DNA from: a virus
Reading direction: 5' to 3' (one strand)
Length of the DNA: 34,726 nt
Virus record (IMG/VR): IMGVR_UViG_3300028835_002670
Span: 1-34,726 of that record
This document shows, piece after piece, positions 1-20,956 of the stretch. Below the pieces are notes generated by a model, which did not search any database, was not told the DNA's origin, and was given only the letters and a program-made list of their open reading frames with translations. A program made the translations under genes and the position numbers. Numbering within the stretch: the first letter of the stretch is position 1; every line of letters begins with the position of its first letter.

Positions 1-398
1 TGAGGAGTGTGGCTGTGAGGAGTATGAGTATGAGCTACATCCGAATGAGGAGTATGTATATGAAGCTCATCCTGATGAGGAGTATGGCTGTGAGGAGTAT
101 CTACATGAGGTGTATGATTATGAGGAGTATCCACATGAGCAATATCATCGTGAGGAGTATGAGAATGAGCAGTATCCGAATGAGGAGTATGACTGTGAGG
201 AGTATGTATATGAAGCTCATCCTGATGAGGAGTATGACTGTGAGGAGTATCTACATGAGGAGTATGACTGTGAGGAGTATGAGTATGAGGAGTATCTAAA
301 TGAGGCTGATGTTGATGGGAAATGTCTACATGAGGAGTATGACTGTGAGCACTATCACCATGAGGTGTATGAGTATGAGGAGTATCGTAATGACCCAT
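1..398 (-). CDS. Repeat-only His/Asp pentapeptide protein (partial, runs off left edge)
   Basis: The minus-strand frame opens at ATG 398 and is uninterrupted to position 1, giving at least 132 residues. After Met it consists only of 26 five-residue units in perfect register, such as PHTHT, PHGDS, AHSHT, PHVDT, PHQDE and LHIHT. About 14 HxH pairs alternate with HxD units. The units match the C-terminus of the tail-tip gene 5 kb away, so the likely role is a tail needle or fibre extension; that is inference from similarity. The start is uncertain: an in-frame TAA lies immediately before the chosen ATG and I see only a weak AGGAAA-like sequence upstream. It follows the GT2-DUF483-like gene by 30 bases in the same direction. 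The C-terminal end is outside the window, so total length and any non-repeat domain are unknown. Confidence 0.7.
   Translation of the reverse strand, partial: MGHYDTPHTHTPHGDSAHSHTPHVDISHQHQPHLDTPHTHTPHSHTPHVDTPHSHTPHQDELHIHTPHSHTPHSDTAHSHTPHDDIAHVDTPHNHTPHVDTPHSHTPHQDELHIHTPHSDVAHTHTPHSHTP
6..395 (-). repeat. Pentapeptide (15-bp) tandem repeat array 1
   Basis: There are twenty-six 15-bp coding units, consensus [P/A/L]-H-x-[D/H]-x, with CAT ACT CCT CAC-like codons recurring throughout. A longer block (a PHQDE LHIHT pair plus its neighbours) occurs twice, which suggests growth by duplication of multi-unit segments. The array resembles the one at 5637-6014 in sequence and orientation. Confidence 0.9.
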
Positions 399-428: not shown

Positions 429-2147
429 TCACTCTTTTATTAAATTGTTAGGATAAACTAATCCCCTTTCAGCCTCAGGAGGAATATAATCACCCTCAAA
501 CTCTACCACAAAACGCTCAACACTACCACAAGAAGGCACAACAGCATAAACTATCGGTGTTCTCACTAGAGCTATCCCATGATAACAGTCCCAACTCACA
601 GGCATCCTTAAAAGCTTCACAACCTTATCTATAAGAGGAGAATTAAGTTCTCGTGCCAACTCCAACCGCTCTTCTGTAATTTTTTTAGTCCCTTGACAAT
701 CAAACGAACAAGGAAGATGAAAAGCAATCCGAACACTTAAGAAACGAAGTGCAGGATTAAATAGCTCATAAGACTTTACTCTAATATAACGAGACTCTTT
801 GTGACTACCAGATGTGTTAAGAGCCGCCTGCCAAACAGGGTCATGATAACCCTTAAGCCAAACATCAACAAAAAACCGACAACAACATTCAGGATAACCT
901 AATAAAATACCCATAGTATAATCATCCTCTTGCTCAACTGCTTTTCTAAAAGCCTCTAAATCATCCATATTCTTAGAAAGAATACAACAAACCATAGCGG
1001 GCTCTCCCTCACGAACAGGATAATGTTTATTAGTAAATCCCTGAACTCCCCCCACTCTACGAACAATAGCTGAGACCAAGCCTTTCTGCTCCCATTCATC
1101 TTGAAATTTCGAATAATATTTTTCTTCTACAGTCTGCCAAGAACAAGGTCGCTGTCCTCTCACAACACTCTCTACTTCCATATCCTGTAACAGACAAAGA
1201 GCATCAGAAAGAACTGGTTCCCATTCTTCTTTTGCCTTCTGATTAAGCCAAACCTTTCTTCCAAAGTTGTCTAAATCAAAGTTTTGTAGTAATTCCATTT
1301 TAGAACCTCCTTGCATGTCACTCAATTTATTGTAACAAAGTCCTGTTGTTTTATTCAACCAATTTGTATCAAACAACTCATCTCTCACTACGTATCGAGA
1401 CTGATAAGCTAAACCCTTCATAATTTCGGGTAAAGCAGAATGAACCTCTCCTTCTCCTACAACACCACCTGTATAAAAAACTCCTGCCCTCTCTACACTT
1501 GCAAGCTCTTCATTCATTAGTTTATCCGCAACAGCCGTATTCTCAGGAAATAACCGATGAAAGTGATAAAACTCAAGGTACGAATCAATCTCAGGAGGAA
1601 GATTAGAAGAAGTAAAACCTTCTCTTATACTTCTATCAGGCTCTACAAAAATATCATCTCCTGCTCGAAACAATCTTAAGTTAGATTGCTTCTTAAATAT
1701 CCGAATTGTTTTATATGTTGAGCCTCGACAATAATTGCGGTCAAAAGAGTCCCATTTAACCTCTACCATTCCTGTTCTAATCCCCTTACAACCAGATTCA
1801 TCGGCTTTTATTATTGATTCTTTTAACTTCACAATATCATGTTCATGCCAAAGCTCATCCCCCTGCACATTAATTATCCAATCTCCCTCTGCACAGAAAA
1901 CCAAGTCATTCAAGGAGCTATCTATATTCTCACAATTTGGAGAAGGCACCCAAGCATGTTGAAAAATTTTCACCTTCTCAGGAAAAGCCTCTCGCAACTT
2001 ACACAGAGCCCTCCAAGTTTTATCAGAACTACCACCGTCCACAACCAAAAACTCGTCAACAACAGGCAACACCGATAAAATACCCTCAAGAAAAGGAAAC
2101 CCCCCAACAATTCCATTCTTTATCGCCATAATACCAGTTACTTTCAT
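429..2147 (-). CDS. Glycosyltransferase family 2 fused to a DUF483-like Cys-rich domain
   Basis: Residues 1 to about 230 look like a GT-A family 2 glycosyltransferase: an N-terminal MAIKN strand, VDGGSSDKT (36-44) for nucleotide-sugar binding, and QGDE (95-98) in the place of the usual DxD motif. The C-terminal part (about 380-572) carries LGYPECC (416-422) and HLPCSFDC (477-484), which resemble the uncharacterised DUF483 family; the clustered Cys residues suggest metal binding. The ATG overlaps the stop of the upstream B12-type radical SAM gene by four bases (ATGA), so the two are probably translationally coupled. Downstream lies the repeat-only protein. I infer that it glycosylates a phage structural protein or a host surface glycan. 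GT2 is fairly secure; DUF483 is from motif memory. Confidence 0.75.
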   Translation of the reverse strand: MKVTGIMAIKNGIVGGFPFLEGILSVLPVVDEFLVVDGGSSDKTWRALCKLREAFPEKVKIFQHAWVPSPNCENIDSSLNDLVFCAEGDWIINVQGDELWHEHDIVKLKESIIKADESGCKGIRTGMVEVKWDSFDRNYCRGSTYKTIRIFKKQSNLRLFRAGDDIFVEPDRSIREGFTSSNLPPEIDSYLEFYHFHRLFPENTAVADKLMNEELASVERAGVFYTGGVVGEGEVHSALPEIMKGLAYQSRYVVRDELFDTNWLNKTTGLCYNKLSDMQGGSKMELLQNFDLDNFGRKVWLNQKAKEEWEPVLSDALCLLQDMEVESVVRGQRPCSWQTVEEKYYSKFQDEWEQKGLVSAIVRRVGGVQGFTNKHYPVREGEPAMVCCILSKNMDDLEAFRKAVEQEDDYTMGILLGYPECCCRFFVDVWLKGYHDPVWQAALNTSGSHKESRYIRVKSYELFNPALRFLSVRIAFHLPCSFDCQGTKKITEERLELARELNSPLIDKVVKLLRMPVSWDCYHGIALVRTPIVYAVVPSCGSVERFVVEFEGDYIPPEAERGLVYPNNLIKE

Positions 2148-3589
2148 TGAACTTTTCCTTCCAAAAACAATGACAATGTTTTCAAATAAAATTCAGACCT
2201 TGCAGCCGAATCAGGATACCCTCTTTGCCAAACCACCTGAGAAACTTTTTCAAGAAGAATCCTAACCCCAGCATCAAAAGGGAATACTCGAATTTTTTTA
2301 TTAAAAGAAAAATCCGTCCTCGGAATCCTGACTTTTTCCGTTTGAATAAGCAAATCAGGCTTTCTAAAAATACTTGCTCCTACAAAAGGCATAAGATATA
2401 GAGTAATACCAACCTCCGCTCCCTTAGAAATATGCTCAATACATTTATCCACAGTCAACTGAACATCAGAAAGACTGCATCCTGGAGAAGACAAAATAAT
2501 ATTAATAAAAGGAGTCATCCTTGCTCGGTATGTCCATTCAAGTGCTCTATTAATCTGGTTTACTGTAATCCCCTTCTGATATTCCTCAAGAATTCTCTCA
2601 GAAAACGACTCTACACCATAAGAGACCATTCGGAACCCTGCTAAAGCCATCAAACGAAGAAGCTTCTCAGAAACATCAGAGATTCTTGTCTGACATATAA
2701 AAGACAAAGAATTAAGAAGAATCTGTTTCTTTTTATAACCAATTACTTTCTTACAAAATTCCGAAATTCTCTCCCTTCCATGCTTCCCTTGAATAAAGTT
2801 ATCATCCTGAAAAAAGATTGTTTGAATAGAAGGATATACTGAAACTATCCGTAAAACCATAGCTAGAAGTCCCTCCGAAGGAATCATAGCGAAGAGAGGT
2901 TTTTCCCCATAAGAAAATTTCAAGAAGTTAGTTGAACTACAAAAAGCACAACCATTAGGACAGTAACTAGAAGTGTATAACCGCACCGTTCTTATTTTTA
3001 ATTTATTCGGATTCACTTTCTCTATCATTGCCCAATACTTCTCATAAGGAATCTCATTAAAATCCATTTCAACAGTGAGGTCACAAAATTCTTTTTTTCT
3101 CAAAGGTTTTTGGTTTCCAATATAACACCTTCCAGAACTTTTCAACAATCCAGTATTTACTATCTCCGCTAACGGATGTTCACCTTCACCAAAAATAATA
3201 TAATCAAGAGGAGAATGTTCAGCAATTTGAGATGAATTAAATGTCGCTTCTTCTCCTCCTGCAACTAAAACCGCTTGAGGATTTTTCTCATGAGCATACC
3301 ACATCAAAGATAAATCATGCTCAAGTGTCAAATGAGAGGGGCTGAAACCGATAACATCAAACTCCGAAGCAAAGTCTTCCAAGAACTTATAGGGGTCAGA
3401 TAGAACAGGGTCAAAAACTTCAACAGGATGTTTAAGAAACCCCTTTATCCGATACAGCCCTAAAGGAGGAGCAGGATAACCTGAGATGTTCCCAGACACT
3501 CTAGTTTCTTTGTAAAGGCATGTTTCAACATCAACTGTACAGCCATTTACCCTGTTATAAGCACTAATTAATAGAATCCTCTTCGACAT
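2144..3589 (-). CDS. B12-binding-type radical SAM protein
   Basis: Residues 1-160 resemble a cobalamin-binding Rossmann domain of radical SAM enzymes: PPLGLYRIKG near 41, DVIGFSPSH near 78, LVAGGEEAT near 108 and IIFGEGEH near 131. The radical SAM core follows, with the 4Fe-4S motif C210-x3-C214-x2-C217 (CPNGCAFC). The architecture is that of class B methyltransferases and related B12 radical SAM enzymes, which act on unactivated carbons of peptides, lipids or RNA; the substrate cannot be read from sequence. Its start overlaps the stop of the SPASM radical SAM gene by one base (TAATG) and its stop overlaps the next start (ATGA), so three genes form one tightly coupled unit directly downstream of the tail tip. 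I see no classical cobalamin-ligating DxHxxG motif, which is common in this class. Confidence 0.85.
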   Translation of the reverse strand: MSKRILLISAYNRVNGCTVDVETCLYKETRVSGNISGYPAPPLGLYRIKGFLKHPVEVFDPVLSDPYKFLEDFASEFDVIGFSPSHLTLEHDLSLMWYAHEKNPQAVLVAGGEEATFNSSQIAEHSPLDYIIFGEGEHPLAEIVNTGLLKSSGRCYIGNQKPLRKKEFCDLTVEMDFNEIPYEKYWAMIEKVNPNKLKIRTVRLYTSSYCPNGCAFCSSTNFLKFSYGEKPLFAMIPSEGLLAMVLRIVSVYPSIQTIFFQDDNFIQGKHGRERISEFCKKVIGYKKKQILLNSLSFICQTRISDVSEKLLRLMALAGFRMVSYGVESFSERILEEYQKGITVNQINRALEWTYRARMTPFINIILSSPGCSLSDVQLTVDKCIEHISKGAEVGITLYLMPFVGASIFRKPDLLIQTEKVRIPRTDFSFNKKIRVFPFDAGVRILLEKVSQVVWQRGYPDSAARSEFYLKTLSLFLEGKVQ

Positions 3590-5208
3590 TACATATCTCC
3601 ATGAGGTCTGTCTCCATAAGGTTTATCCCCGTGAGGCTTGTCTCCATAAGGCTTATCCCCATGAAGTTTATCTCTAGAAGATTCATCTCCATAAGGCTTA
3701 TCCCCATGAAGTTTATCTCTAGAAGATTCATCTCCATAAGGCTTGTCTCCATAAGGCTTATCCCCATGAAGTTTATCTCTAGAAGATTCATCCCCGTGAG
3801 GCTTGTCTCCATAAGGCTTATCTTTATAAGAACTATCTCCATGCAGTACATGAGTATGCCCACTATCTCCATGAGGTCTGTCTCCATAAGGTTTATCCCC
3901 GTGAGGCTTGTCTCCATAAGGCTTATCCCCATGAAGTTTATCTCCATGAGGTCTGTCTCCATATCCACACGCATCTCTAGTAGGCGATTCAAGACACTGT
4001 TGTTTTAATTCTTCCAAATTCTTTCTTTTATTTTGAGCCCAACTCGAACCATCCTCTCCTAACGAAGCTTGTACCAAAGAAGGGGAAGGAAAGCAAGGAT
4101 AAAATGTTGGTAATGGATGAACATTAGGCATTAACCCCTTTATCTTCTCCTCAACATGAGAAAAAAGCTGCTTCCAAGCTTCACACTTTCTCGTTCGATT
4201 CCTCCAGTCATTATCGATACCCGCCCCTGGACAACCACCATTACATATAGACCAATATCGACAATCTTTACAACCCTTCTGTTCTTGAGGAGTCTGAAAA
4301 AGCATACGGTATCTCGCATCTCCTAGACCCTCAGCCGCTAAAGCTTGAATACCATCAATAGCCGCTCCCCCCTTAAGACAACCTCCGATACTCCCGTCAC
4401 CCATAATTGTTCGCTCAGAATTAGTAGCCCAAACGTCACACTGAGTAAAAATACAGGTTGCATTTCTTGTATAGCCCAGCATAAGGTCAACAACCTCTCT
4501 AAAAGGCAACCAAGCCAACACAGGGTCAGAAAAACAAACATCTGCCAACTGACAATAAGCATACCCCATCTCTTCGTTCGTCAACTCTTCCTCGTCTCTA
4601 TTCTCTTCTTCAGATATAAGAGCTTCATTTATTCGAACCCAACAAACTCCAAACTCGTCTCGAAGCCTCAATAGAAACTTTATAAAAGCAGGTAATCTTT
4701 CTTTTGAAGCATTGTATTTAGACAAGAGAGTGATAACACTAAGGTCTAACCCCGCATCTCTACACAGCCGCATGTTATCAAGAACCTTATCCGTTTCTTT
4801 CTGAATATCCCCTTCAGGCAGATATGCCGCATTCCATCTACCATAGTTCAGCTCCCAAGTATCTCCATCAATGCTAACCCCTACAGAAAACCTATACTCT
4901 TTAAACAATTCAATTAACTGAGGCGTAATCAAAGTTCCATTTGTTTGAATATTCCCAGACCCATATAGTCCATGAATTTTGATAACCAATTTTTCAACAT
5001 CCTCAAATTTCATCATCAAAGGCTCTCCGCCATGAAGACAAGCATGAGAATACCGAAGGTTCTTTGGTGTTTTCGAAGTCTCCTCTTCCAAAGTTTTTAG
5101 GATTGCATCAATGTCATAACTTGTATCAGAATGAACTGACCTAATCCGATTCTCATAACACCTTCTACACAATCCATTGCAACCAATCGTTTTTATACTA
5201 ATAGGCAT
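3589..5208 (-). CDS. SPASM-domain radical SAM peptide maturase with a fused 25-unit repeat tail
   Basis: The N-terminus has C10-x3-C14-x2-C17 (CNGLCRRC) for the radical SAM 4Fe-4S cluster and GGEP at 60-63. A SPASM-type Cys region follows: C252, C257, C277, then C313-x2-C316-x5-C322-x3-C326 and C342, expected to bind auxiliary clusters. This is the layout of sulfatase maturases and RiPP peptide maturases such as PqqE and cyclophane-forming enzymes. From residue 415 to 539 the protein becomes 25 perfect pentapeptides such as PHGDK, PYGDK, LHGDK and SSRDK. This tail is not part of any maturase family known to me. It matches the repeat family of the adjacent tail-tip protein, including one HxH unit (GHTHV). 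The start has a good GGAGG site. The tail may be a substrate, a docking segment or a virion part; I favour substrate or docking. Confidence 0.88.
   Translation of the reverse strand: MPISIKTIGCNGLCRRCYENRIRSVHSDTSYDIDAILKTLEEETSKTPKNLRYSHACLHGGEPLMMKFEDVEKLVIKIHGLYGSGNIQTNGTLITPQLIELFKEYRFSVGVSIDGDTWELNYGRWNAAYLPEGDIQKETDKVLDNMRLCRDAGLDLSVITLLSKYNASKERLPAFIKFLLRLRDEFGVCWVRINEALISEEENRDEEELTNEEMGYAYCQLADVCFSDPVLAWLPFREVVDLMLGYTRNATCIFTQCDVWATNSERTIMGDGSIGGCLKGGAAIDGIQALAAEGLGDARYRMLFQTPQEQKGCKDCRYWSICNGGCPGAGIDNDWRNRTRKCEAWKQLFSHVEEKIKGLMPNVHPLPTFYPCFPSPSLVQASLGEDGSSWAQNKRKNLEELKQQCLESPTRDACGYGDRPHGDKLHGDKPYGDKPHGDKPYGDRPHGDSGHTHVLHGDSSYKDKPYGDKPHGDESSRDKLHGDKPYGDKPYGDESSRDKLHGDKPYGDESSRDKLHGDKPYGDKPHGDKPYGDRPHGDM
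3592..3966 (-). repeat. Pentapeptide (15-bp) tandem repeat array 2 in the radical SAM gene
   Basis: Twenty-five 15-bp units end directly at the stop codon. Many form a 45-bp higher-order unit (SSRDK LHGDK PYGDK/E) repeated three times in the middle. The outer blocks (PYGDK PHGDK PYGDR PHGD) recur at both ends, a sign of segmental duplication. Position 4 of the unit is Asp in all but one unit, and position 2 is His or Tyr except in the SSRDK units. Confidence 0.95.
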
Positions 5209-5226: not shown

Positions 5227-5529
5227 TTAATATTCGAACCATAAATCTCCGTTATTACCATCACCCCCACCTGGAGCAGCATCAGAAACATAAAACTTTC
5301 TGCCCGCTTCAGCATTATCCAAAAGAACAATAGGAGGCATCATGCTCTTATCCACATCACCAGAAGAATTCAGCTTAATAGGATGCTCTGCATCCCCCGC
5401 TCCCGCCGAAGCATCTTTAAAAACCTTCTTTTTATGAAAAAACTTAGCAGTTTCATGAGCAACACCAGCTTTTTGACCTATATGTTTTTGAAAGTCTGAT
5501 TCCGAACTAAATGTTTTCTTTTTTGCCAT
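5227..5529 (-). CDS. Small tail-fibre-like protein
   Basis: This 100-residue protein has a basic N-terminus. Its middle, HPIKLNSSGDVDKSMMPP, resembles hinge sequences of phage tail fibres (KLNxxGxIDxSMLP type). The C-terminus GNNGDLWFEY resembles the GDxWF(E/D)x ends of many phage tail proteins. Both are pattern matches from memory. It has a clear AAGGTGG ribosome-binding site and sits between the tail-tip gene and the radical SAM cassette, fitting a fibre or tip accessory protein. Because a small gene lies just upstream of a SPASM enzyme I considered a RiPP precursor; the fibre-like motifs and lack of a repeated core make that less likely, but it could still be a substrate. Confidence 0.6.
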   Translation of the reverse strand: MAKKKTFSSESDFQKHIGQKAGVAHETAKFFHKKKVFKDASAGAGDAEHPIKLNSSGDVDKSMMPPIVLLDNAEAGRKFYVSDAAPGGGDGNNGDLWFEY

Positions 5530-5633: not shown

Positions 5634-7778
5634 CTAAAAAGTATGAATATGAGGAGTATCTTGATGAGGAACATGGGTGTGTGGAGAATCCGAGTGAGGA
5701 GTATGACTATGAGGAGTGTCTGTATAAGGAGAATCCTCATAAGGAACATCTAAATGAGGTGCATGGCTGTGAGGAGTATCCTCATGAGGGGTATGAATAT
5801 GAGGAGTATCGTAATACATATCTCCATGAGGCTCACCTCCCCCGTCTCCATACATGTCACCATGCCAATCAGAATGAGAAGTATGAATATGAGCACTATC
5901 ACCATGAGGAGTATGGCTGTGGGGCGTGTCTTGATGAGAAGTATCCTGATAAGGAGTGTGGCTATGAGCTACATTCGAATGAGGAGTATGAGTATGAGCT
6001 ACATCCACATGAGGAACATCCCCCATAGATTGAAAATCATCTACCAAAACAAGATAAGTCCGTTCAGTATTTGTATTCTTAACAACTTGCCTTACTCTAA
6101 ACACCTTTTCATCCCAAGCTCCCGAAGAATCCACTGCCCTTTTCCGAGAAACTTTTACTTTCATCGTAGGAAAAAGTTTAAACGCTTTTATTCCACACGA
6201 AGTATCCACAATCTTAACTGGATTGCTGCACATATTTCGAATCGCAGTCGCAATCGAATTAGCATCGGAATCCTCCCGAAGATATGTTTCTAATATCAAG
6301 GTCTCTCTCACCCCATATTTATACAAAACCTCATAATTATTCTTTTCCACAACTTTAAATTCTTGCGTTTTAGGATTTTGGTCATATTGAAATTTAATCT
6401 TATTCCGTAGAAAAGTATCATTCAATCCCACCTGCCAGTCTTCCCCAAAATCTCTATCCTCCAGCTTCATTACATCCGCAGGAACCGTCTCTTCATACGA
6501 CACAAAAGCAAGCTTACCTTCTTCAGTAGGAGTAAAAAAAGATACAACACCACGACCGATTGTTTGAAGAACCTGCCTAGAACTCCTATCCACATCCAGA
6601 TAGATACACTGCTCATAAGGTCGCACAGTATCCACGTTATCAAATGAATCCAAGTCCAAATCATCATCAATATAATCCAGATAAGTCTTCAAAATATCTT
6701 TTGCTATCTCTCCCCCCGTCTCCATTAAAACACCACCATCAATTACATACCCTTTAGCATCAACCTCCAAAGTATCCCCTTCTATGAGAGGAATAAGTAA
6801 AGTAAACTCCGCATTATTCAAATCAGTAGTATAATGAGTATTTTCAATTAAAGGAACAGAATAATCTATATCTCCAAAATTTAACCGAATCTCAGTAAAC
6901 TCTTTAATTTTTCGGCTACCCGCTATTTTCCACTTACTACCCGTAGGATAAGGAGGGTCTCCATACGGCTCTATCACCCTGTTTGAATCTATACAAACAG
7001 GAATTATATTTGTCTTTATCCCATAAAAGACAGGAATAGCCAATCCCTCCGCCCCTGTTTCCAATTTAGGATAATTACTCAACCAATAATGGTCAATCGG
7101 AATCGCTGCATATGCTCCAACTCGAATATCTTTTACAGTAAAAATAACCTCCTCATCTTTCACATAATAATTAGATGCCCTTCCTCCAAAATAAACAATA
7201 TATTCAGTATAAGGGAGGTCTTCGCCTCCTAATTTGATTAACATTTTACAATTAGTCCAAAGATAATCATCAGCCGCTTTATCAAACCAGCCAGGATTAT
7301 TCATCTTAAAACTACCAAAATTAAACTTATAAGCCCCTTCCACAATATCATCAACACTCAAATCCAACATTGGAAGACTATTCTGACGAATGATAGGCAT
7401 ATACTGAACCCCATTAAACTCACAAGCATCGGTAGAAAAATACTTCCAGACAAAAGCAACTACTACCGTATCAGTAGAACTTGAACTCAAATTATCATTA
7501 TCAAAACAATGGACATATAAAACCTGATTAGCCTTATCAAACCACCAACTCCCAGCAGTAGACTTAACATCTGCTAAATTACTTTTCTCCGTCATTTCCT
7601 GTCCATCATCAGCCGTAGCAGAAACCTTTACTTCAAAGCAAACATGAGAATATGTATCACTCCCTTCAGATATCCAACTTTCTCCTGCTGGATAATGAGC
7701 ACGAGGGTTTGCTTCCACCAAAGCACGTAGGCTAGGATTAGCCAAATCCGCTAACTCATCCCAAGTTGTTACACCCAT
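5634..7778 (-). CDS. Tail-tip/hub protein with a His/Asp pentapeptide needle-like C-terminus
   Basis: The gene lies directly after the distal-tail-like gene, where tail-tip or tail-associated proteins are encoded. Residues 1-588 form a beta-rich, Cys-poor body that I cannot assign to a named family; the middle (about 100-580) fits a hub-like tip protein by position and composition. From 589 to 713 the protein is made of pentapeptides such as PHVDV, AHTHT, PHSHT and PYQDT: ten units, a Gly/Asp-rich break (about 639-658), then eleven more, with nine HxH pairs in total. In T4 gp37 such HxH motifs bind iron ions along a trimeric receptor-binding needle, so a metal-stiffened needle is a sensible inference. 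Start: GAGG site, ATG two bases after the upstream stop. Confidence 0.8.
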   Translation of the reverse strand: MGVTTWDELADLANPSLRALVEANPRAHYPAGESWISEGSDTYSHVCFEVKVSATADDGQEMTEKSNLADVKSTAGSWWFDKANQVLYVHCFDNDNLSSSSTDTVVVAFVWKYFSTDACEFNGVQYMPIIRQNSLPMLDLSVDDIVEGAYKFNFGSFKMNNPGWFDKAADDYLWTNCKMLIKLGGEDLPYTEYIVYFGGRASNYYVKDEEVIFTVKDIRVGAYAAIPIDHYWLSNYPKLETGAEGLAIPVFYGIKTNIIPVCIDSNRVIEPYGDPPYPTGSKWKIAGSRKIKEFTEIRLNFGDIDYSVPLIENTHYTTDLNNAEFTLLIPLIEGDTLEVDAKGYVIDGGVLMETGGEIAKDILKTYLDYIDDDLDLDSFDNVDTVRPYEQCIYLDVDRSSRQVLQTIGRGVVSFFTPTEEGKLAFVSYEETVPADVMKLEDRDFGEDWQVGLNDTFLRNKIKFQYDQNPKTQEFKVVEKNNYEVLYKYGVRETLILETYLREDSDANSIATAIRNMCSNPVKIVDTSCGIKAFKLFPTMKVKVSRKRAVDSSGAWDEKVFRVRQVVKNTNTERTYLVLVDDFQSMGDVPHVDVAHTHTPHSNVAHSHTPYQDTSHQDTPHSHTPHGDSAHIHTSHSDWHGDMYGDGGGEPHGDMYYDTPHIHTPHEDTPHSHAPHLDVPYEDSPYTDTPHSHTPHSDSPHTHVPHQDTPHIHTF
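5637..6014 (-). repeat. Pentapeptide (15-bp) tandem repeat array 3 in the tail-tip gene
   Basis: About 22 units of [P/A/S]-[H/Y]-x-[D/H]-x end at the stop codon apart from one final Phe. The register breaks once, at a Gly-rich segment about 50 codons from the array start. HxH and HxD units alternate irregularly. The array is close in sequence to array 1 and more distant from array 2. Confidence 0.93.
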
Positions 7779-7779
7779 C

Positions 7780-8538
7780 TTAATCCAACCTCAACCAGGA
7801 CAAACTAATAGTTTTAAACAAATTTCCAGGAATCCTACGACCATACCGACCCTCAAAAATTATATATCTCATTGTTTCTTTGGCTTGCGTATGGTCTTCA
7901 ACAAAAACAAGAGGAAACCTTTTTCTTGTTTTTCTATAAACTCTTTCCAGCCTACTCTCATCCCCAAGCATTACTTCATAAGTAACAGTTTTAGCTTCTA
8001 CCTCTCGCCCCTGCATCACATTCAAGTGACCATCCTTGGAATAAATATGAGCACTTGTATCATCCAAATCATTTGTTGCTCCATACTCATAACCTCGACT
8101 AAGCTGAATGGAACTCCCCAAAACAATAACTCCCAACTGCACATAAGAAGCCACAGTAGGGTCATCCATCACAATTCTATATTTAGAAGCAGAAACTTCT
8201 GCATAACTAACTATAGCTCGCCCATTACTTGAATCATAATCAAAATTAGCCACGTCTACCCACTGCGTCGTATACATCTGAAGTTTCAAAGTAGTATAAG
8301 AACCTGTAAGATTTAAGCCGTAAAGAGCACATCCTGTCGTAGCAATAACAACACTTCCCTCTGATTCTATTTCTATCGTAGCATTCTTAGTTCCTGCTAA
8401 ACTTCTATAAACATAATCCACCCATATATTCTTAATTTTCGAAGGTTCATAACCTGGCTGGAAGTTTGAAGAAGGAACAACCGAAATATCACCAGCCCTC
8501 ACAATTTCATCATAAATAAATACATTATCACCACTCAT
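7780..8538 (-). CDS. Distal tail / minor tail protein
   Basis: This 252-residue beta-rich protein is encoded between the tape measure and the tail-tip gene, the usual place of the distal tail (Dit-like) or first minor tail protein. Sequence features are alternating hydrophobic strands, a Tyr/Asp-rich centre and a basic C-terminus. I do not recognise a specific motif, so the assignment rests on gene order. The GGAGGTG site sits inside the end of the tape-measure gene, nine bases before ATG, and the stop lies one base before the next start. Confidence 0.6.
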   Translation of the reverse strand: MSGDNVFIYDEIVRAGDISVVPSSNFQPGYEPSKIKNIWVDYVYRSLAGTKNATIEIESEGSVVIATTGCALYGLNLTGSYTTLKLQMYTTQWVDVANFDYDSSNGRAIVSYAEVSASKYRIVMDDPTVASYVQLGVIVLGSSIQLSRGYEYGATNDLDDTSAHIYSKDGHLNVMQGREVEAKTVTYEVMLGDESRLERVYRKTRKRFPLVFVEDHTQAKETMRYIIFEGRYGRRIPGNLFKTISLSWLRLD

Positions 8539-8541
8539 AAC

Positions 8542-11500
8542 TTAGTACACCTCCTCTGCATTCGTTTCAAAATCTCCATACTTCTTCCCTTCCTTTATAT
8601 AAGGAACAATAGCTTTATAAAACTGTCGTCCGTCTATACTAATAATTGCAACTTGCATACCCTTTCCGCCTTCCTCCACAGAAATAGGCTGGGCTCCCCC
8701 ACCAAAAAATTGACGCAAAGCCTCAGAAAGAGCTGGCGGAAGAATCGATTCTCCCCTATGAGCATAAATCAAAGCATTCTGTCCTAGATTAGGAATCCCA
8801 AACTGTGCTCCTCTTCCACCTCTACCCCCATTACTAGGAAATTTCGGAAAATGCTTCCCCACCGTATCAAGAGCATCAGTCAACCCCCGACTCCCTGTAA
8901 GAATTTCAATCAAATCTCTGATAGCTTCTATAACTCCTTCAAACCCTTCTGTAAGAATTTCAGTCATGCTCTTAGCATCCTCACCAAGAACCCCATACTC
9001 ATCTGCCATCTCAATCATTTTTAATATATCCTCATCTAAAACAAGTCCATATTCCTCAGCCCAATACTGAAGCCTCCGCAGAGTAGGAGCCATCACTGAA
9101 AGAGCTTGCTCCTGAGTCAATCCAGCATCCAGTAACCTCTGATAATATTCATATGCCTGAGCAGCAACATCAGCAAAAGCTTTGGCTCCTTTTTCACCGA
9201 AGAAAGAAGCAGAATGCCCCAATGCGTCCAAAACCATCAGATTCCCTTCTATAGCATCAAATAAATCTTTATTAAGTCTATAAATCAAAGCAATATCAAG
9301 AAGAGCATCAATCGCCTCTCCTCCTGAAATTCCGAGTGCATCCATTCTAAGCTTCAAAATTAGAAGACTTTCTCCTATAGCAGCAAAAATTTCTATCCAA
9401 CTCATACCCGCCGCAATCATAGAATTGACTATAGTTATAGCAATATTGGAAAGACGCTGTAATTCTTCCGCAGTATTACCAGCAGCCCACACCATCGCAT
9501 TCAAACCCTCAACCGCAGTATCCAACCATTTACGACAATATTCATCAAGGACTTTGACTTCAATACCAAGCTCTTGTGTTCTTTTAATCAACTCAAGTAT
9601 CGCTGCACTACCTTCAAGTCCAGCCTCCTCCATTGCATCAAGAAGCTCCTCCCAAGCATCACTAAACATCTCTAGATATTTTCGTGAAAACTCCGTTTGT
9701 CTCTCCATGATTTCTAACCACTTTATTAACTCTTCCAAAGCCTCGGCATATTCATCAACCCACCGAGATACTTCCTTACCCCCATCACCACCAACACGTT
9801 TGTCCGTCGGAGCTTGCAATTGCTCCTTAGAAATAGTCTCTGCAATTTCTCCTCCCTTCCTCCTAACCTCTTCCATTTTATCCAGGATTGCCTGCATTTC
9901 CGCATCAACTTTCTGTCTTAAAATTCCAAAAACTGTAAGAATATGTTTAACTATACCCGCTACAACCCAAGCCATAAAAGCAACAGCAAAAAATTTCATC
10001 ATGACTTTAAGACTTTTTATAAATGCCGCAAAAGCTAACTTCATAGTTATCAAACCTTTAGCCCAAGTTAAAAGCATTTCCGCAACCATCTGACCTATAA
10101 GAGTAAGGATTGACTTCACGAAACTTCCAAAATTTTTATTTAGATTCTTCAAATCTACAATTATATTAGAAAAAAACCGACCAAAATCACGAGTTAATTT
10201 ACGGAAAAGACTCCGTGATAACGTATCTATAGAGCCAAAAGTTTTCTTCCATACTTTCAACCCTGCTGCTAATTCTGCTTTATTAGTGATTCCCATTTCT
10301 GACATCAACTCAAAATACATCCGAAATGTCTGATTATAGCGTGCCTGTTTTTCAAATTCCGACCAAGAAGTCATATCAATCTCACTCTTCGTGCTTTTAG
10401 CCAAATCTTCTATTCGACGAAGATTACCCACTCCCAAAGCTAAATTCAACATCTCATTTAATTTCAATAACTTGTCTGTGTACTCTTCCCAAATTGCAAA
10501 CATATCACTCTCTGCCTGCATCTCAAGAGCTACCCACTTATCCAGTTTCACCTTTTCCAATTTAATAATCTTTTTAGTTTGTTCAACAATATCATCCCAT
10601 TCTTCCCCTCTCAATTCATTCCTCATCATTTCCATGTTCGTGTCAATACGGGTAAAGTCACTTATTAAAGTTTTATGGAGAGCCAATGCTTTCTTCGCAT
10701 ACTTCTCTTGAGCAGTTAACTTCGTATCTAGCAACTTAATAAAATTCTCTAAAAGAACCTTATTCTCAAAATCCCCAAGCCTCTCCAAATTATTTTTTAT
10801 AAGTTCAAGCTGAGTCCGATGTTCCTTCACAAAAAGCTTCATCACCTCCGCACTATCCCCATACGCCTCTACCCATTTGGTCTTCCATGTATCCGCCAAC
10901 GCCTCTACACTTGTTTCCAAAGCCTGCAAAGGAGGATGCATTTTCTCAAAAATAACTAGATATTCCCGCATAAATTCCTCATATTTCATCTCTCTGAAAA
11001 CTTCAGGTTGAACCGCTAATGCTTCTTCAAGCCTTTTTATATATTTAGGAATTTCCTTCTCTGTGAGTTTCTCCAATGACAACCCTAAAGAAGTCAAATA
11101 TGCCTGAACCAGCACCCATTTCGGGTCTTCAGGTGTCAATTCCATTAACTCTCCTAACAACTTTATGGAATCTTCTAATTCTTCTTTACTAAGTACTCGT
11201 GCTAAACCTCTAACATGTTGACTTGACGACTCCACTATTTTATTCCAATCCCTCTGAAGACGACTCAAGAATCTCATAGCTTCTATAGATTTCTCCATAA
11301 TAGCTAAGTTTGTCCTTTGTGCATCCATCCATTCTTTTATCCGCTTTGTACTATATCCCCAATTTCGAGCAAGAGCTTCTAAAATATAATTAAACTCCGT
11401 CATGTCTGTCTCTCCTGCCCTAAGTGCTTCAATAAATGCAGTAACGTCTTTTAACATACCCCTATTAACCACTCTAAACTCTTCGACAAGAGCCTTTACA

Positions 11501-13146
11501 ATATCTCCATACATACCTACTACGTTAAAGCTTTTACGGAGAGCTGCCAGCACATCAGCCTTACCCAACGCTCGAAGCTCTTTAGCAACATTTCCAGTCG
11601 CCTCACCTGCTGATTTAGCCGCAGCAACATATAAATTCAATTCATCTCTCAATGCTTTCATCGCTTTAGATTCCCGATGCATTGTAGCTATTGCCCTGTC
11701 TGATGAAGCTATCCACATGTCTAAAGCAAATTTAATAGCTGCATATGCTATAACACCAGCAATTACACCTCCTCTCATAAGCATAAAATACTTATGTCTA
11801 ATCATAAGAGCCTTATTCGATGCACTGAGCGTCGCAGTATGTTTAATCTCAGCTATTGTCATACTTTTTAAAACATTCACATACGCTTTTGCAAAAGTTA
11901 TATTTGTCAACTGTGCAGCCGATGAAACTTTATACGCTTTAGCTAACCGCCACACTATTGGAATAGCAGCCAATATCACCACACTTGACCTCATCAAAAC
12001 AGCAATGAAACTACTAGCTAAACGAATAAAACCGCTTAACCATTTAAAACCCTTACCCTCCCACAATTCATACATTACCTTTAACATCTTCGCTCCTGCC
12101 GCTTTTACCTCCTCCGCTACAGTCCCAATCATCTTACCATAACCTCGTGAGACTTCTCCTCCATCTTCAGTAGCATCACGAATCTTCTGCAACAACCGTA
12201 CATAATCTTTGAATCCTTCACCTGCCAGAACAAAAGCTCCCCTCAAAGCTCTTTGTCTCCTAAATATCTTAGGAAGAATATCTCCATAACGAGCACTGGC
12301 TTCCACTAAACGTCTTAGAACACCCAGCAACCCAATTCCTTCAAAAGCATTTCTACCCCATGCCCAACCAAGTTTTTGAAACTCTTTCTTAGCTTTATCA
12401 ATAGGTCGCATGAATGCGAGCATCATCCTATTTAAGGCTGTCGCTGCTTCAGTGACATCCAAACCACGCTGAGTCATGACAGCCAATGCAGCAGAAATCT
12501 CATCGATATGAACCCCCATAGCTGCTGCGGTAGGCAGAACTTTTCCAATAGCCTGATTCAGTTCTTCGGCATGGTATTTTCCCTCCATAACCGATGCAAA
12601 AAGCATATCAGACTTTCCTCGCATTTCATCAGCAGTATACCCGTAAGCCTTCATAATCGCAGTCAAACTGGATGCTGCGGTAGCCAAATCTGTAATTCCT
12701 GCTTTTGCATATTTTGCTGACACTACCAAAAGCTTAAATGCTTCCACGGGTTTAGTTACACCAGCAGACATAATTTCATATAAACCTTTAGTAAGGTCAG
12801 TAGCCTTCCCCAGGTAGGGACTTAACTGCAAAAGGTCTCTAGTAACCACTCGGAAAGACGCAGCCATCTCCTTATTCCTCATATCCACAAGAGTAGACAC
12901 TTCGGCGAGACGGGTTTGTAAACTTATAGCTTCCCCTATCAATTTAGTTAGAACACCAAAAAAGGTGAAGATTGCGGTATATGTTGCGATACGTGTGAGA
13001 GCTAACTTAAGATAACCTGTCTGCTTTATCGTCTGCCGCATCTTGTCAGTAGTACGCTCAAAATGCGTACCCATCTTCTCAGTAGTTGCAGACACCCCTT
13101 CATCTGTAGCAACAAACCTTACGCCAGCCTCAAAATCTTCCGCCAT
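8542..13146 (-). CDS. Tail tape-measure protein (TP901-type)
   Basis: At 1534 residues this is by far the longest gene in the tail block. The first 260 residues match the TP901-1-type tape-measure core: an N-terminal coiled segment, a hydrophobic stretch near 50-70, and an Ala/Thr-rich region with LMxxGVTKP-like and LPTAAAMGV motifs. Further hydrophobic segments lie near residues 385-405, 460-480 and around 1020-1070 and fit membrane-interacting tape-measure segments. Much of the rest is long amphipathic helix. Using the general rule of about 0.15 nm per residue, the tail would be roughly 230 nm, a long flexible siphovirus tail. The ribosome-binding site is weak, so translation may depend partly on ribosomes leaving the frameshifted chaperone, which ends 33 bases upstream. 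Confidence 0.93.
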   Translation of the reverse strand: MAEDFEAGVRFVATDEGVSATTEKMGTHFERTTDKMRQTIKQTGYLKLALTRIATYTAIFTFFGVLTKLIGEAISLQTRLAEVSTLVDMRNKEMAASFRVVTRDLLQLSPYLGKATDLTKGLYEIMSAGVTKPVEAFKLLVVSAKYAKAGITDLATAASSLTAIMKAYGYTADEMRGKSDMLFASVMEGKYHAEELNQAIGKVLPTAAAMGVHIDEISAALAVMTQRGLDVTEAATALNRMMLAFMRPIDKAKKEFQKLGWAWGRNAFEGIGLLGVLRRLVEASARYGDILPKIFRRQRALRGAFVLAGEGFKDYVRLLQKIRDATEDGGEVSRGYGKMIGTVAEEVKAAGAKMLKVMYELWEGKGFKWLSGFIRLASSFIAVLMRSSVVILAAIPIVWRLAKAYKVSSAAQLTNITFAKAYVNVLKSMTIAEIKHTATLSASNKALMIRHKYFMLMRGGVIAGVIAYAAIKFALDMWIASSDRAIATMHRESKAMKALRDELNLYVAAAKSAGEATGNVAKELRALGKADVLAALRKSFNVVGMYGDIVKALVEEFRVVNRGMLKDVTAFIEALRAGETDMTEFNYILEALARNWGYSTKRIKEWMDAQRTNLAIMEKSIEAMRFLSRLQRDWNKIVESSSQHVRGLARVLSKEELEDSIKLLGELMELTPEDPKWVLVQAYLTSLGLSLEKLTEKEIPKYIKRLEEALAVQPEVFREMKYEEFMREYLVIFEKMHPPLQALETSVEALADTWKTKWVEAYGDSAEVMKLFVKEHRTQLELIKNNLERLGDFENKVLLENFIKLLDTKLTAQEKYAKKALALHKTLISDFTRIDTNMEMMRNELRGEEWDDIVEQTKKIIKLEKVKLDKWVALEMQAESDMFAIWEEYTDKLLKLNEMLNLALGVGNLRRIEDLAKSTKSEIDMTSWSEFEKQARYNQTFRMYFELMSEMGITNKAELAAGLKVWKKTFGSIDTLSRSLFRKLTRDFGRFFSNIIVDLKNLNKNFGSFVKSILTLIGQMVAEMLLTWAKGLITMKLAFAAFIKSLKVMMKFFAVAFMAWVVAGIVKHILTVFGILRQKVDAEMQAILDKMEEVRRKGGEIAETISKEQLQAPTDKRVGGDGGKEVSRWVDEYAEALEELIKWLEIMERQTEFSRKYLEMFSDAWEELLDAMEEAGLEGSAAILELIKRTQELGIEVKVLDEYCRKWLDTAVEGLNAMVWAAGNTAEELQRLSNIAITIVNSMIAAGMSWIEIFAAIGESLLILKLRMDALGISGGEAIDALLDIALIYRLNKDLFDAIEGNLMVLDALGHSASFFGEKGAKAFADVAAQAYEYYQRLLDAGLTQEQALSVMAPTLRRLQYWAEEYGLVLDEDILKMIEMADEYGVLGEDAKSMTEILTEGFEGVIEAIRDLIEILTGSRGLTDALDTVGKHFPKFPSNGGRGGRGAQFGIPNLGQNALIYAHRGESILPPALSEALRQFFGGGAQPISVEEGGKGMQVAIISIDGRQFYKAIVPYIKEGKKYGDFETNAEEVY

Positions 13147-20300: not shown

Positions 20301-20897
20301 TTACTTCTTATCTTTCTTTCCTGAAGCTTCCTTCTTTAGTTCTTCAACAGGGTCTTTGACAGGTTCTTCAGGGGGAGCTTCCGCTTCCTTCTTTGGTTCT
20401 TCAACAGGGTCTTTGACAGGTTCTTCAGGGGGAGCTTCAGGAGCCTCCTCAGCAGGGTCTTTGACAGACTCCTCTGGAAGCTCGATTGGTTCAACCTTTT
20501 CCTTTGGAGCCTTAACTACTTCAACCTTCTCTTCTGGAGCATCTTCTATTTCCATATCAACACTATCTTTCAGCATCCGAATTGCAGTAAGCTTCTTAGC
20601 TTCTTTCGACTCTGCATAATCCAGAGCAATCCTCAACTGTTTCTTAGATAGATGCCCTCTAACAGACGCACTTCCAGGGTCAAGCTTTTTGTCTCGGATA
20701 GCTGCTATAATCTCTTCAGAAGTAGGCTGGCGAAACACAACTTCACCACTGTAAATCTTTTTCTGCTTCCTCGCCCAAGCTTCAGCAGATAAATCCTTAT
20801 ACGCCCTCTCTATAGCTCCAGTTAAGATAAAAATATCTCCTTCCCTGTAAACCTTCCTAGCATAAGTCAATCCAGTCTTTATACATGTTACAAGCAT
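20301..20897 (-). CDS. Glu/Pro-rich repeat protein after major capsid
   Basis: I place the start at ATG 20897, 198 residues, because GAGGAGGT lies seven bases upstream; an upstream GTG would add eleven residues without a better site. Residues 1 to about 100 look globular, with a helix containing SEEIIAAIRDKK and LSKKQLRIALDYAE. From about 115 the chain is acidic and Pro-rich with a PPEEPVKDPVEE block occurring twice plus a degenerate copy, then a Lys-rich end. Such disordered tails are common in scaffold- or head-associated proteins. Function unknown; the location between capsid and connector genes suggests a head role. Confidence 0.7.
   Translation of the reverse strand: MLVTCIKTGLTYARKVYREGDIFILTGAIERAYKDLSAEAWARKQKKIYSGEVVFRQPTSEEIIAAIRDKKLDPGSASVRGHLSKKQLRIALDYAESKEAKKLTAIRMLKDSVDMEIEDAPEEKVEVVKAPKEKVEPIELPEESVKDPAEEAPEAPPEEPVKDPVEEPKKEAEAPPEEPVKDPVEELKKEASGKKDKK
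20339..20438 (-). repeat. 43-bp direct repeat, two exact copies
   Basis: Positions 20339-20381 and 20396-20438 are identical over 43 bases, spaced with a 57-bp period, and encode the repeated PPEEPVKDP block. A weaker third copy follows at about 20441-20490. The exactness points to recent duplication. Confidence 0.9.
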
Positions 20898-20956
20898 AAT
20901 ACAAACCTCCTCATAAAAGTTTCCCACCACCCAACCCAGCTCGATTATAAACCAAG

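Follow-up and report, generated by a model that had tools for sequence, protein, structure and literature searches.

We analysed a 34,726-nucleotide (34.7 kb) stretch of viral DNA, IMG/VR record IMGVR_UViG_3300028835_002670 (hereafter the window), in which an open reading frame (ORF) at positions 3589-5208 encodes a 539-residue SPASM radical S-adenosylmethionine (SAM) enzyme that ends in a repeat tail. The ORF lies on the minus strand, which an earlier reading of the letters alone (the initial annotation) had not specified, and the module is read from high to low coordinates. In that direction, replication genes are followed by those for the terminase, the portal, a head protein, the neck, the tape measure protein, a probable distal tail protein and a hub/tip-like protein, after which come, on the same strand, a 100-residue protein, the SPASM enzyme, a B12-binding radical SAM enzyme, a fusion of a glycosyltransferase with a DUF483 domain, and a second repeat protein (Table 1).

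The enzyme, its cysteines and its repeats

The enzyme matched the Pfam Radical_SAM model (E=1e-12), and its cluster motif CNGLCRRC supplies C10, C14 and C17 in the CxxxCxxC arrangement. Seven further cysteines form a SPASM set (C257-x14-G-x4-C277, C313-x2-C316-x5-C322-x3-C326 and C342). All of these, as well as an extra C252, were invariant across 62 homologues, which together with the Pfam match bears out the complete radical SAM core and SPASM cysteine set of the initial annotation. A structure prediction, which that annotation had proposed as a check, was run on the full enzyme with AlphaFold, leaving the Thermus phage rows out of the sequence inputs, and yielded a confident core (residues 1-363) followed by a disordered tail (residues 409-539; predicted local distance difference test score, pLDDT, <50). 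The fold of residues 1-363 was that of SPASM radical SAM enzymes, with ChlB (9gmc; Z 30.6, root-mean-square deviation 3.0 A over 331 residues) and anSME (4k38; Z 30.1) tied as top structural neighbours. ChlB is called a 'multiple cyclophane synthase' in the title of its paper (cited in PMC12636437). At the sequence level, the best PDB match was anSME, the best NCBIfam matches were peptide maturases (DynA, YhhB and AmcB) along with anSME, none of them near the cut-off, and the HxsB model matched 61 of 65 family members, weakly. While anSME is alike in its fold, it differs in its catalytic base: Asp277 of anSME, which follows a SPASM cysteine, is not conserved, as after C277 the hidden Markov model alignment places Gly or Leu where anSME has CD.

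As initially annotated, the repeat tail begins at residue 415; it ends at residue 539. It does contain the 25 pentapeptide slots that had been described as perfect, but the exact form [PL][HY]GD[KRES] is found in 18 of them; 20 carry [HY]GD (11 HGD and 9 YGD), the remaining five being one YKD, one HTH and three SRD. The [HY]xD core ascribed to the unit was confirmed, with 21 occurrences in the tail against a mean of 4.4 and a maximum of 12 when its residues were shuffled 10,000 times. The hub/tip-like protein at 5634-7778 had been credited with the same repeat family; its repeat is related, but the unit is PHTHTPHSDT (9 HxH, 10 HxD and 5 YxD in total) and not PHGDK. Searches with this protein as the query gave no related sequence among viral contigs or phage records and no match in the PDB.

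Enzyme and repeat protein are paired in both directions

Using the catalytic domain with its repeat tail removed as the query, we obtained 83 related sequences from viral contigs and a further 260 from genomes, and kept the best 80 of each set. A gap in bit scores separated a high group (~240 or more) from a low group (170 or less). The high group of 107 members, forming 73 clusters at 80% identity (52 viral and 21 genome clusters), was monophyletic with a support of 100/100 in a tree that included four outgroup rows. An HxD-rich ORF was present near the enzyme in 48 of the 52 viral clusters, on the same strand in 46 and mostly immediately upstream, and a DUF483 gene in 49; at least two HxD motifs were located on the C-terminus of the enzyme itself in 40. 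The four viral clusters without an HxD-rich ORF comprised two with less than 1.4 kb of upstream DNA and two with FxN and HxN repeats. DUF483 was found in all 21 genome clusters, 14 of which passed the strict HxD rule, and in most of the others a longer protein encoded upstream carried an HxD cluster at its C-terminus. At the 56 distant radical SAM loci of the low group (L114-L169), an HxD-rich ORF, an HxD tail and DUF483 were each found in none. The initial annotation was to be refuted by homologues that consistently had neither the repeats nor tail genes beside them; the search gave the opposite picture, with phage tail genes surrounding the copies in Thermus phages.

The same pairing was recovered starting from the repeat. 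Viral contigs were scanned, with no reference to the enzyme, for a DNA pattern that encodes HxDxHxDxxHxDxHxD, and the enzyme turned out to be encoded on 57 of the 78 pattern-matched records that were searched whole. After discarding 10 matches as frame artefacts or short His-rich stretches, this corresponded to 57 of 68 genuine repeat ORFs. Among the 21 enzyme-less records, four carried a genuine repeat on a contig that ends on the expected enzyme side. A comparison of contig names by eye showed that 29 of the 57 enzyme-bearing contigs were new relative to the enzyme-led set, and the pairing on new contigs was 29 of 40.

Motif counts over the repeat regions of 59 partners showed that the second residue after His (n = 2051) was mostly Asp (87.3%) or else Asn (6.9%; 94% together), with 1791 HxD observed against 375 in shuffles. 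Spacing between motifs was irregular: inside a single protein it varied between 3 and more than 10 residues. Proline was absent from the middle position (0 of 1966, compared to 119 expected) and occurred only twice at position +3, while it preceded His 281 times. The irregular spacing and the proline bias imply that what is conserved is a directional local tripeptide rather than a periodic fold, as would be expected of a site on which an enzyme acts. Partner proteins held a total of 1840 HxD, 188 YxD, 142 HxN, 67 FxN, 50 FxD, 37 WxD and 19 HxH motifs, and the repeat protein of one locus nested within the HxD clade (L032) contained 37 FxN. Judged from these sequences, the irregular spacing and the exchange of His, Tyr and Phe fit a three-residue cyclophane better than metal binding, and a pattern with His, Tyr and Phe variants agrees with the aromatic-x-[Asp/Asn] motif of three-residue cyclophane chemistry to which the initial annotation had appealed.

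His tripeptide repeats are also paired with radical SAM maturases in the His-Xaa-Ser system (HxsA/HxsB/HxsC). That system differs from the present one in its third residue, which is Ser instead of the Asp or Asn found here, and in its HxsB/HxsC pair, compared to one radical SAM enzyme plus DUF483 in a phage tail setting. Another precedent for His-rich repeats on a receptor-binding phage fibre is T4 gp37, which has an HxH iron needle. The repeats could be metal-binding needles resembling the HxH iron sites at the tip of the T4 long tail fibre, with the enzyme serving something else nearby: His and Asp are metal ligands, HxH and HxD alternate in the tail protein of the window, and the two repeat proteins of the window contain 9 and 14 HxH. 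We nevertheless regard this as improbable, since HxD, HxN and FxN dominate overall and the relatives have 19 HxH against 1840 HxD, since 67 FxN motifs and a mostly-FxN fibre cannot bind metal likewise (Phe and Asn bind metals poorly, which makes metal binding alone unlikely), since the spacing is too irregular for a regular trimeric needle, and since the repeat pairs both ways with this single enzyme clade. We know of no radical SAM enzyme for T4 fibres.

Proposed cross-linking of tail proteins

We propose, with a probability of roughly 0.6, that the enzyme is a phage-encoded post-translational maturase that forms cyclophanes in a tail protein of the same phage. The partner would be a tail hub or needle-like fibre with tens of aromatic-x-Asp/Asn tripeptides, mainly His-x-Asp. 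The enzyme would generate a 5'-deoxyadenosyl radical and remove a beta-hydrogen from the third residue (Asp, Asn or His), whose beta carbon would then be bonded to the first residue's aromatic ring to give a strained three-residue cyclophane. A flexible repeat would in this way be turned into a chain of small rings that is stiff and protease-resistant, and the DUF483 protein would act as an obligate helper or as a second modifier. The gene pairing and motif statistics lend good support to the initial annotation's suggestion that the enzyme modifies an aromatic-x-Asp repeat in a phage tail protein, and we consider HxD very probably its substrate; for the product, a cyclophane is the outcome that we favour by a modest degree, and the modification itself, the stiffening and the use of the enzyme's own tail as a substrate are inferences.

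Ring-to-C-beta bonds between residues 1 and 3 are known from YxdB (Tyr C3-Asp), HaaB (His C2-Ala) and YhhB (His C2-Arg) (PMC11002830), and by analogy a His-x-Asp cyclophane would be a small step from these products. With the triceptide SPASM maturases more widely (YxdB, HaaB, YhhB, AmcB, XyeB, FxsB, GrrM, and ChlB, 9GMC), the present enzyme shares the SPASM radical SAM architecture, an aromatic-x-Asp/Asn/Arg/Ala type of motif and many motifs per substrate; the tripeptides and their pairing with the enzyme correspond to the aromatic-x-x3 partners of these maturases, with the repeat protein as the presumed substrate. Triceptide maturases act on short precursors of ribosomally synthesised and post-translationally modified peptides, whereas the partners here are long structural proteins with up to ~100 motifs, and both the motif-bearing enzyme tail and the DUF483 partner are features of the present module that those maturases lack. 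We did not find HxD as a characterised motif of triceptide maturases. DynA, the dynobactin maturase, is similar in being the best NCBIfam match (85 bits) and in the three-residue link involving His that its pathway installs, and differs in a cut-off of 450 bits, far above the score of the enzyme, and in its substrate, a small antibiotic peptide.

The chemistry of SPASM enzymes is diverse, and DynA forms a bond from Tyr C-beta to His N. HxD might thus be modified without cyclophane formation, for example by epimerisation of Asp or His, a His N-Asp C-beta bond, hydroxylation or desaturation, or be primed for methylation or glycosylation by the DUF483 partner, to which the frequent fusion of DUF483 to a methyltransferase, its fusion to a glycosyltransferase in the window and the neighbouring B12 radical SAM enzyme could point. 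We think such an outcome unlikely, because the need for H/Y/F/W-x-[DN] and the exclusion of proline at x indicate ring closure between residues 1 and 3, and because epimerisation of Asp would need no aromatic partner.

Several observations weigh against cyclophane maturation. The support is wholly comparative, coming from sequences and models, and the fold comparison does not separate cyclophane synthases from anSME. Scores of the window enzyme against the NCBIfam cyclophane models were all below the cut-offs (DynA 85 of 450 bits, YhhB 64 of 445, AmcB 58 of 425 and XyeB 34 of 450), and with a tail pLDDT below 50 no docking pose of the tail was obtainable. HxH motifs are nearly as frequent as HxD in the window, which would suit metal binding too, and a clear enzyme tail is missing in 12 of the 52 viral clusters. 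Finally, seven contigs with a genuine HxD repeat and downstream DNA (L223, L243, L220, L185, L193, L225 and L227) had no radical SAM gene; these exceptions may be incomplete, fragment records, or may reflect loss of the enzyme or its supply from elsewhere.

The clusters without a clear tail indicate that the tail is dispensable, and the state of the tail changed at least five times on the enzyme tree, from which we conclude that it is useful yet dispensable. Repeats spread easily, and together with this patchy occurrence that would suit a functionless recombination copy of the fibre gene. However, tail and fibres differ in make-up: the middle residue was Gly in 140 of 248 HxD motifs of the tails, compared to a mix of Ser (419), Thr (307) and Gly (286) in the fibres (n = 1816), and within the window the unit PHGDK stands against PHTHTPHSDT. 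A functionless copy therefore appears rather improbable. Under the maturase proposal, the mostly HGD tail would be substrate-like, and it would probably either be modified itself or serve the enzyme as a docking segment on the fibre.

If this proposal holds, phages harden their receptor-binding fibres by a radical chemistry so far known from small peptide natural products and place as many as ~100 cross-links in one protein, a type of virion-protein maturation not described before, and phage tail fibres would be ribosomally made, radical-cross-linked polymers. It would furthermore explain the function of a widespread class of HxD-repeat proteins and of the enzyme that partners with DUF483, and provide cyclophane enzymes for stiff, protease-resistant protein fibres. 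Whether, more broadly, structural proteins of viruses and cells alike form a class that is cross-linked at tens to ~100 aromatic-x-Asp/Asn tripeptides by a dedicated, often motif-tailed SPASM enzyme appears to us an evenly balanced question. A search of open-licence papers returned no description of radical SAM or cyclophane action on phage tail fibres or HxD repeats. Campylobacter phages with many radical SAM genes were considered as a precedent and set aside, as PMC2853527 classes those as metabolic genes.

Thermus phages, cellular copies and neighbouring genes

The module ranges from Thermus phages to contigs of Bacillota, Acidobacteriota and other bacteria, a haloarchaeal plasmid and a Micrarchaeota contig; a location among tail genes was observed in part of these loci, with such genes surrounding the copies in isolated Thermus phages, which make the idea testable at once. 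In Cumys and phiMa, the baseplate genes and a collar-fibre gene are followed by a small gene, the HxD protein (54 motifs in Cumys and 53 in phiMa), the enzyme, whose tail is HGDYTDHGDAPHGDHWD in both, and DUF483. In phiLo, an enzyme with an HxD tail and DUF483 are accompanied by three HxD proteins, which have 474, 782 and 675 residues and 72, 101 and 55 motifs; there (L009, 17807-23663), the three HxD proteins lie on the strand opposite to the enzyme.

The initial annotation knew of no described phage system of this kind. This holds only in part, as the same three genes (HxD protein, radical SAM enzyme and DUF483) were published as the 'rSAM module' of Cumys and phiMa by Kolesnik et al. 2024 (PMC11437467), where DNA modification was proposed as their role. 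The available excerpts of that paper contain no mention of the repeats or of a protein substrate, and report that, in some cyanobacteria, homologues have genes for deazapurine DNA modification nearby, which speaks for action on DNA. We consider that role highly improbable, given that the third gene of the published module encodes an HxD-repeat protein with 54 motifs, that the enzyme sorts with SPASM peptide maturases, and that the pairing with a repeat protein spans phages, bacteria and archaea; maturation of tail proteins, if true, would correct the published assignment.

In three cellular copies, L101 (Aquimarina), L107 and L111 (Sphingomonas), the HxD part forms the C-terminus of a large protein. 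L101 is found near a phenylalanyl-tRNA synthetase gene and L111 near a GH43 gene, and no phage genes turned up among the few neighbours scanned. The archaeal copies, on a Halomicrococcus plasmid (L108) and in Micrarchaeota (L109), consist of HxD proteins, DUF483 and the enzyme.

DUF483 is present in almost every locus and is fused to the radical SAM enzyme in five (L092, L093, L097, L098 and L106); it is often joined to a methyltransferase, and in the window to a glycosyltransferase. Against the Pfam model (PF04467, cut-off 25), one copy (L014) scored 31.7 bits, the window copy 17.9 and others 16.7-20.4, and LGYPxCC is common to most copies. A DUF483 model (pLDDT 91) gave no convincing match in the PDB (best Foldseek E 0.06; best VIA Z 6.9 over 103 residues, 2guk).

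Table 1. Features of the tail module in the window and the roles suggested for them.
Feature	Position	Strand	Basis
SPASM radical SAM enzyme, 539 residues; proposed maturase of [HYF]-x-[DN] motifs	3589..5208	-	
Radical SAM cluster motif C10-x3-C14-x2-C17	5158..5181	-	sequence; invariant, 62 homologues
SPASM cysteine region, C252 to C342	4183..4455	-	
Repeat tail at the enzyme's C-terminus (residues 415-539), with 20 x [HY]GD; disordered by prediction	3592..3966	-	
Tail hub/tip-like protein (PHROG 8917), HxH/HxD/YxD repeats at its end; proposed substrate	5634..7778	-	
Repeat region of the hub/tip-like protein, residues 590-714	5637..6011	-	
Second repeat protein, 14 HxH + 12 HxD, truncated by the contig end; possible second substrate	3..398	-	
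Glycosyltransferase family 2 domain and DUF483-like domain, one fused protein	429..2147	-	
DUF483-like domain; companion of the SPASM enzyme in nearly all loci	432..1325	-	
B12-binding radical SAM enzyme; possible extra modification; not in closest relative L006	2144..3589	-	
100-residue protein; resembles N-terminus of L006 tail fibre	5227..5529	-	
Probable distal tail protein (context)	7780..8538	-	
Tape measure protein (phage tail module context)	8542..13146	-	PhageMin_Tail E=9e-25

Among the remaining neighbours, the radical SAM enzyme with a B12-binding domain (2144-3589, minus strand) sits between the SPASM enzyme and the DUF483 fusion, is absent in L006, and could be a second modifier of the fibre. 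The second HxH/HxD repeat protein (3-398, minus strand) begins downstream of the module and is cut by the contig end. The 100-residue protein (5227-5529, minus strand) shares the stretch PIKLNSSG..D.SM.P with the N-terminus of the 426-residue tail fibre of L006 (L006:11818-13098), and because of this common stretch it may be a shortened fibre. Downstream of the glycosyltransferase in L006, the ORF at L006:11096-11842 has a sulfotransferase-like N-terminus by eye, without a Pfam match. Elsewhere in the window, a 57-bp tandem duplication in two nearly identical copies (20326-20438) lies inside the ORF at 20301-20930.

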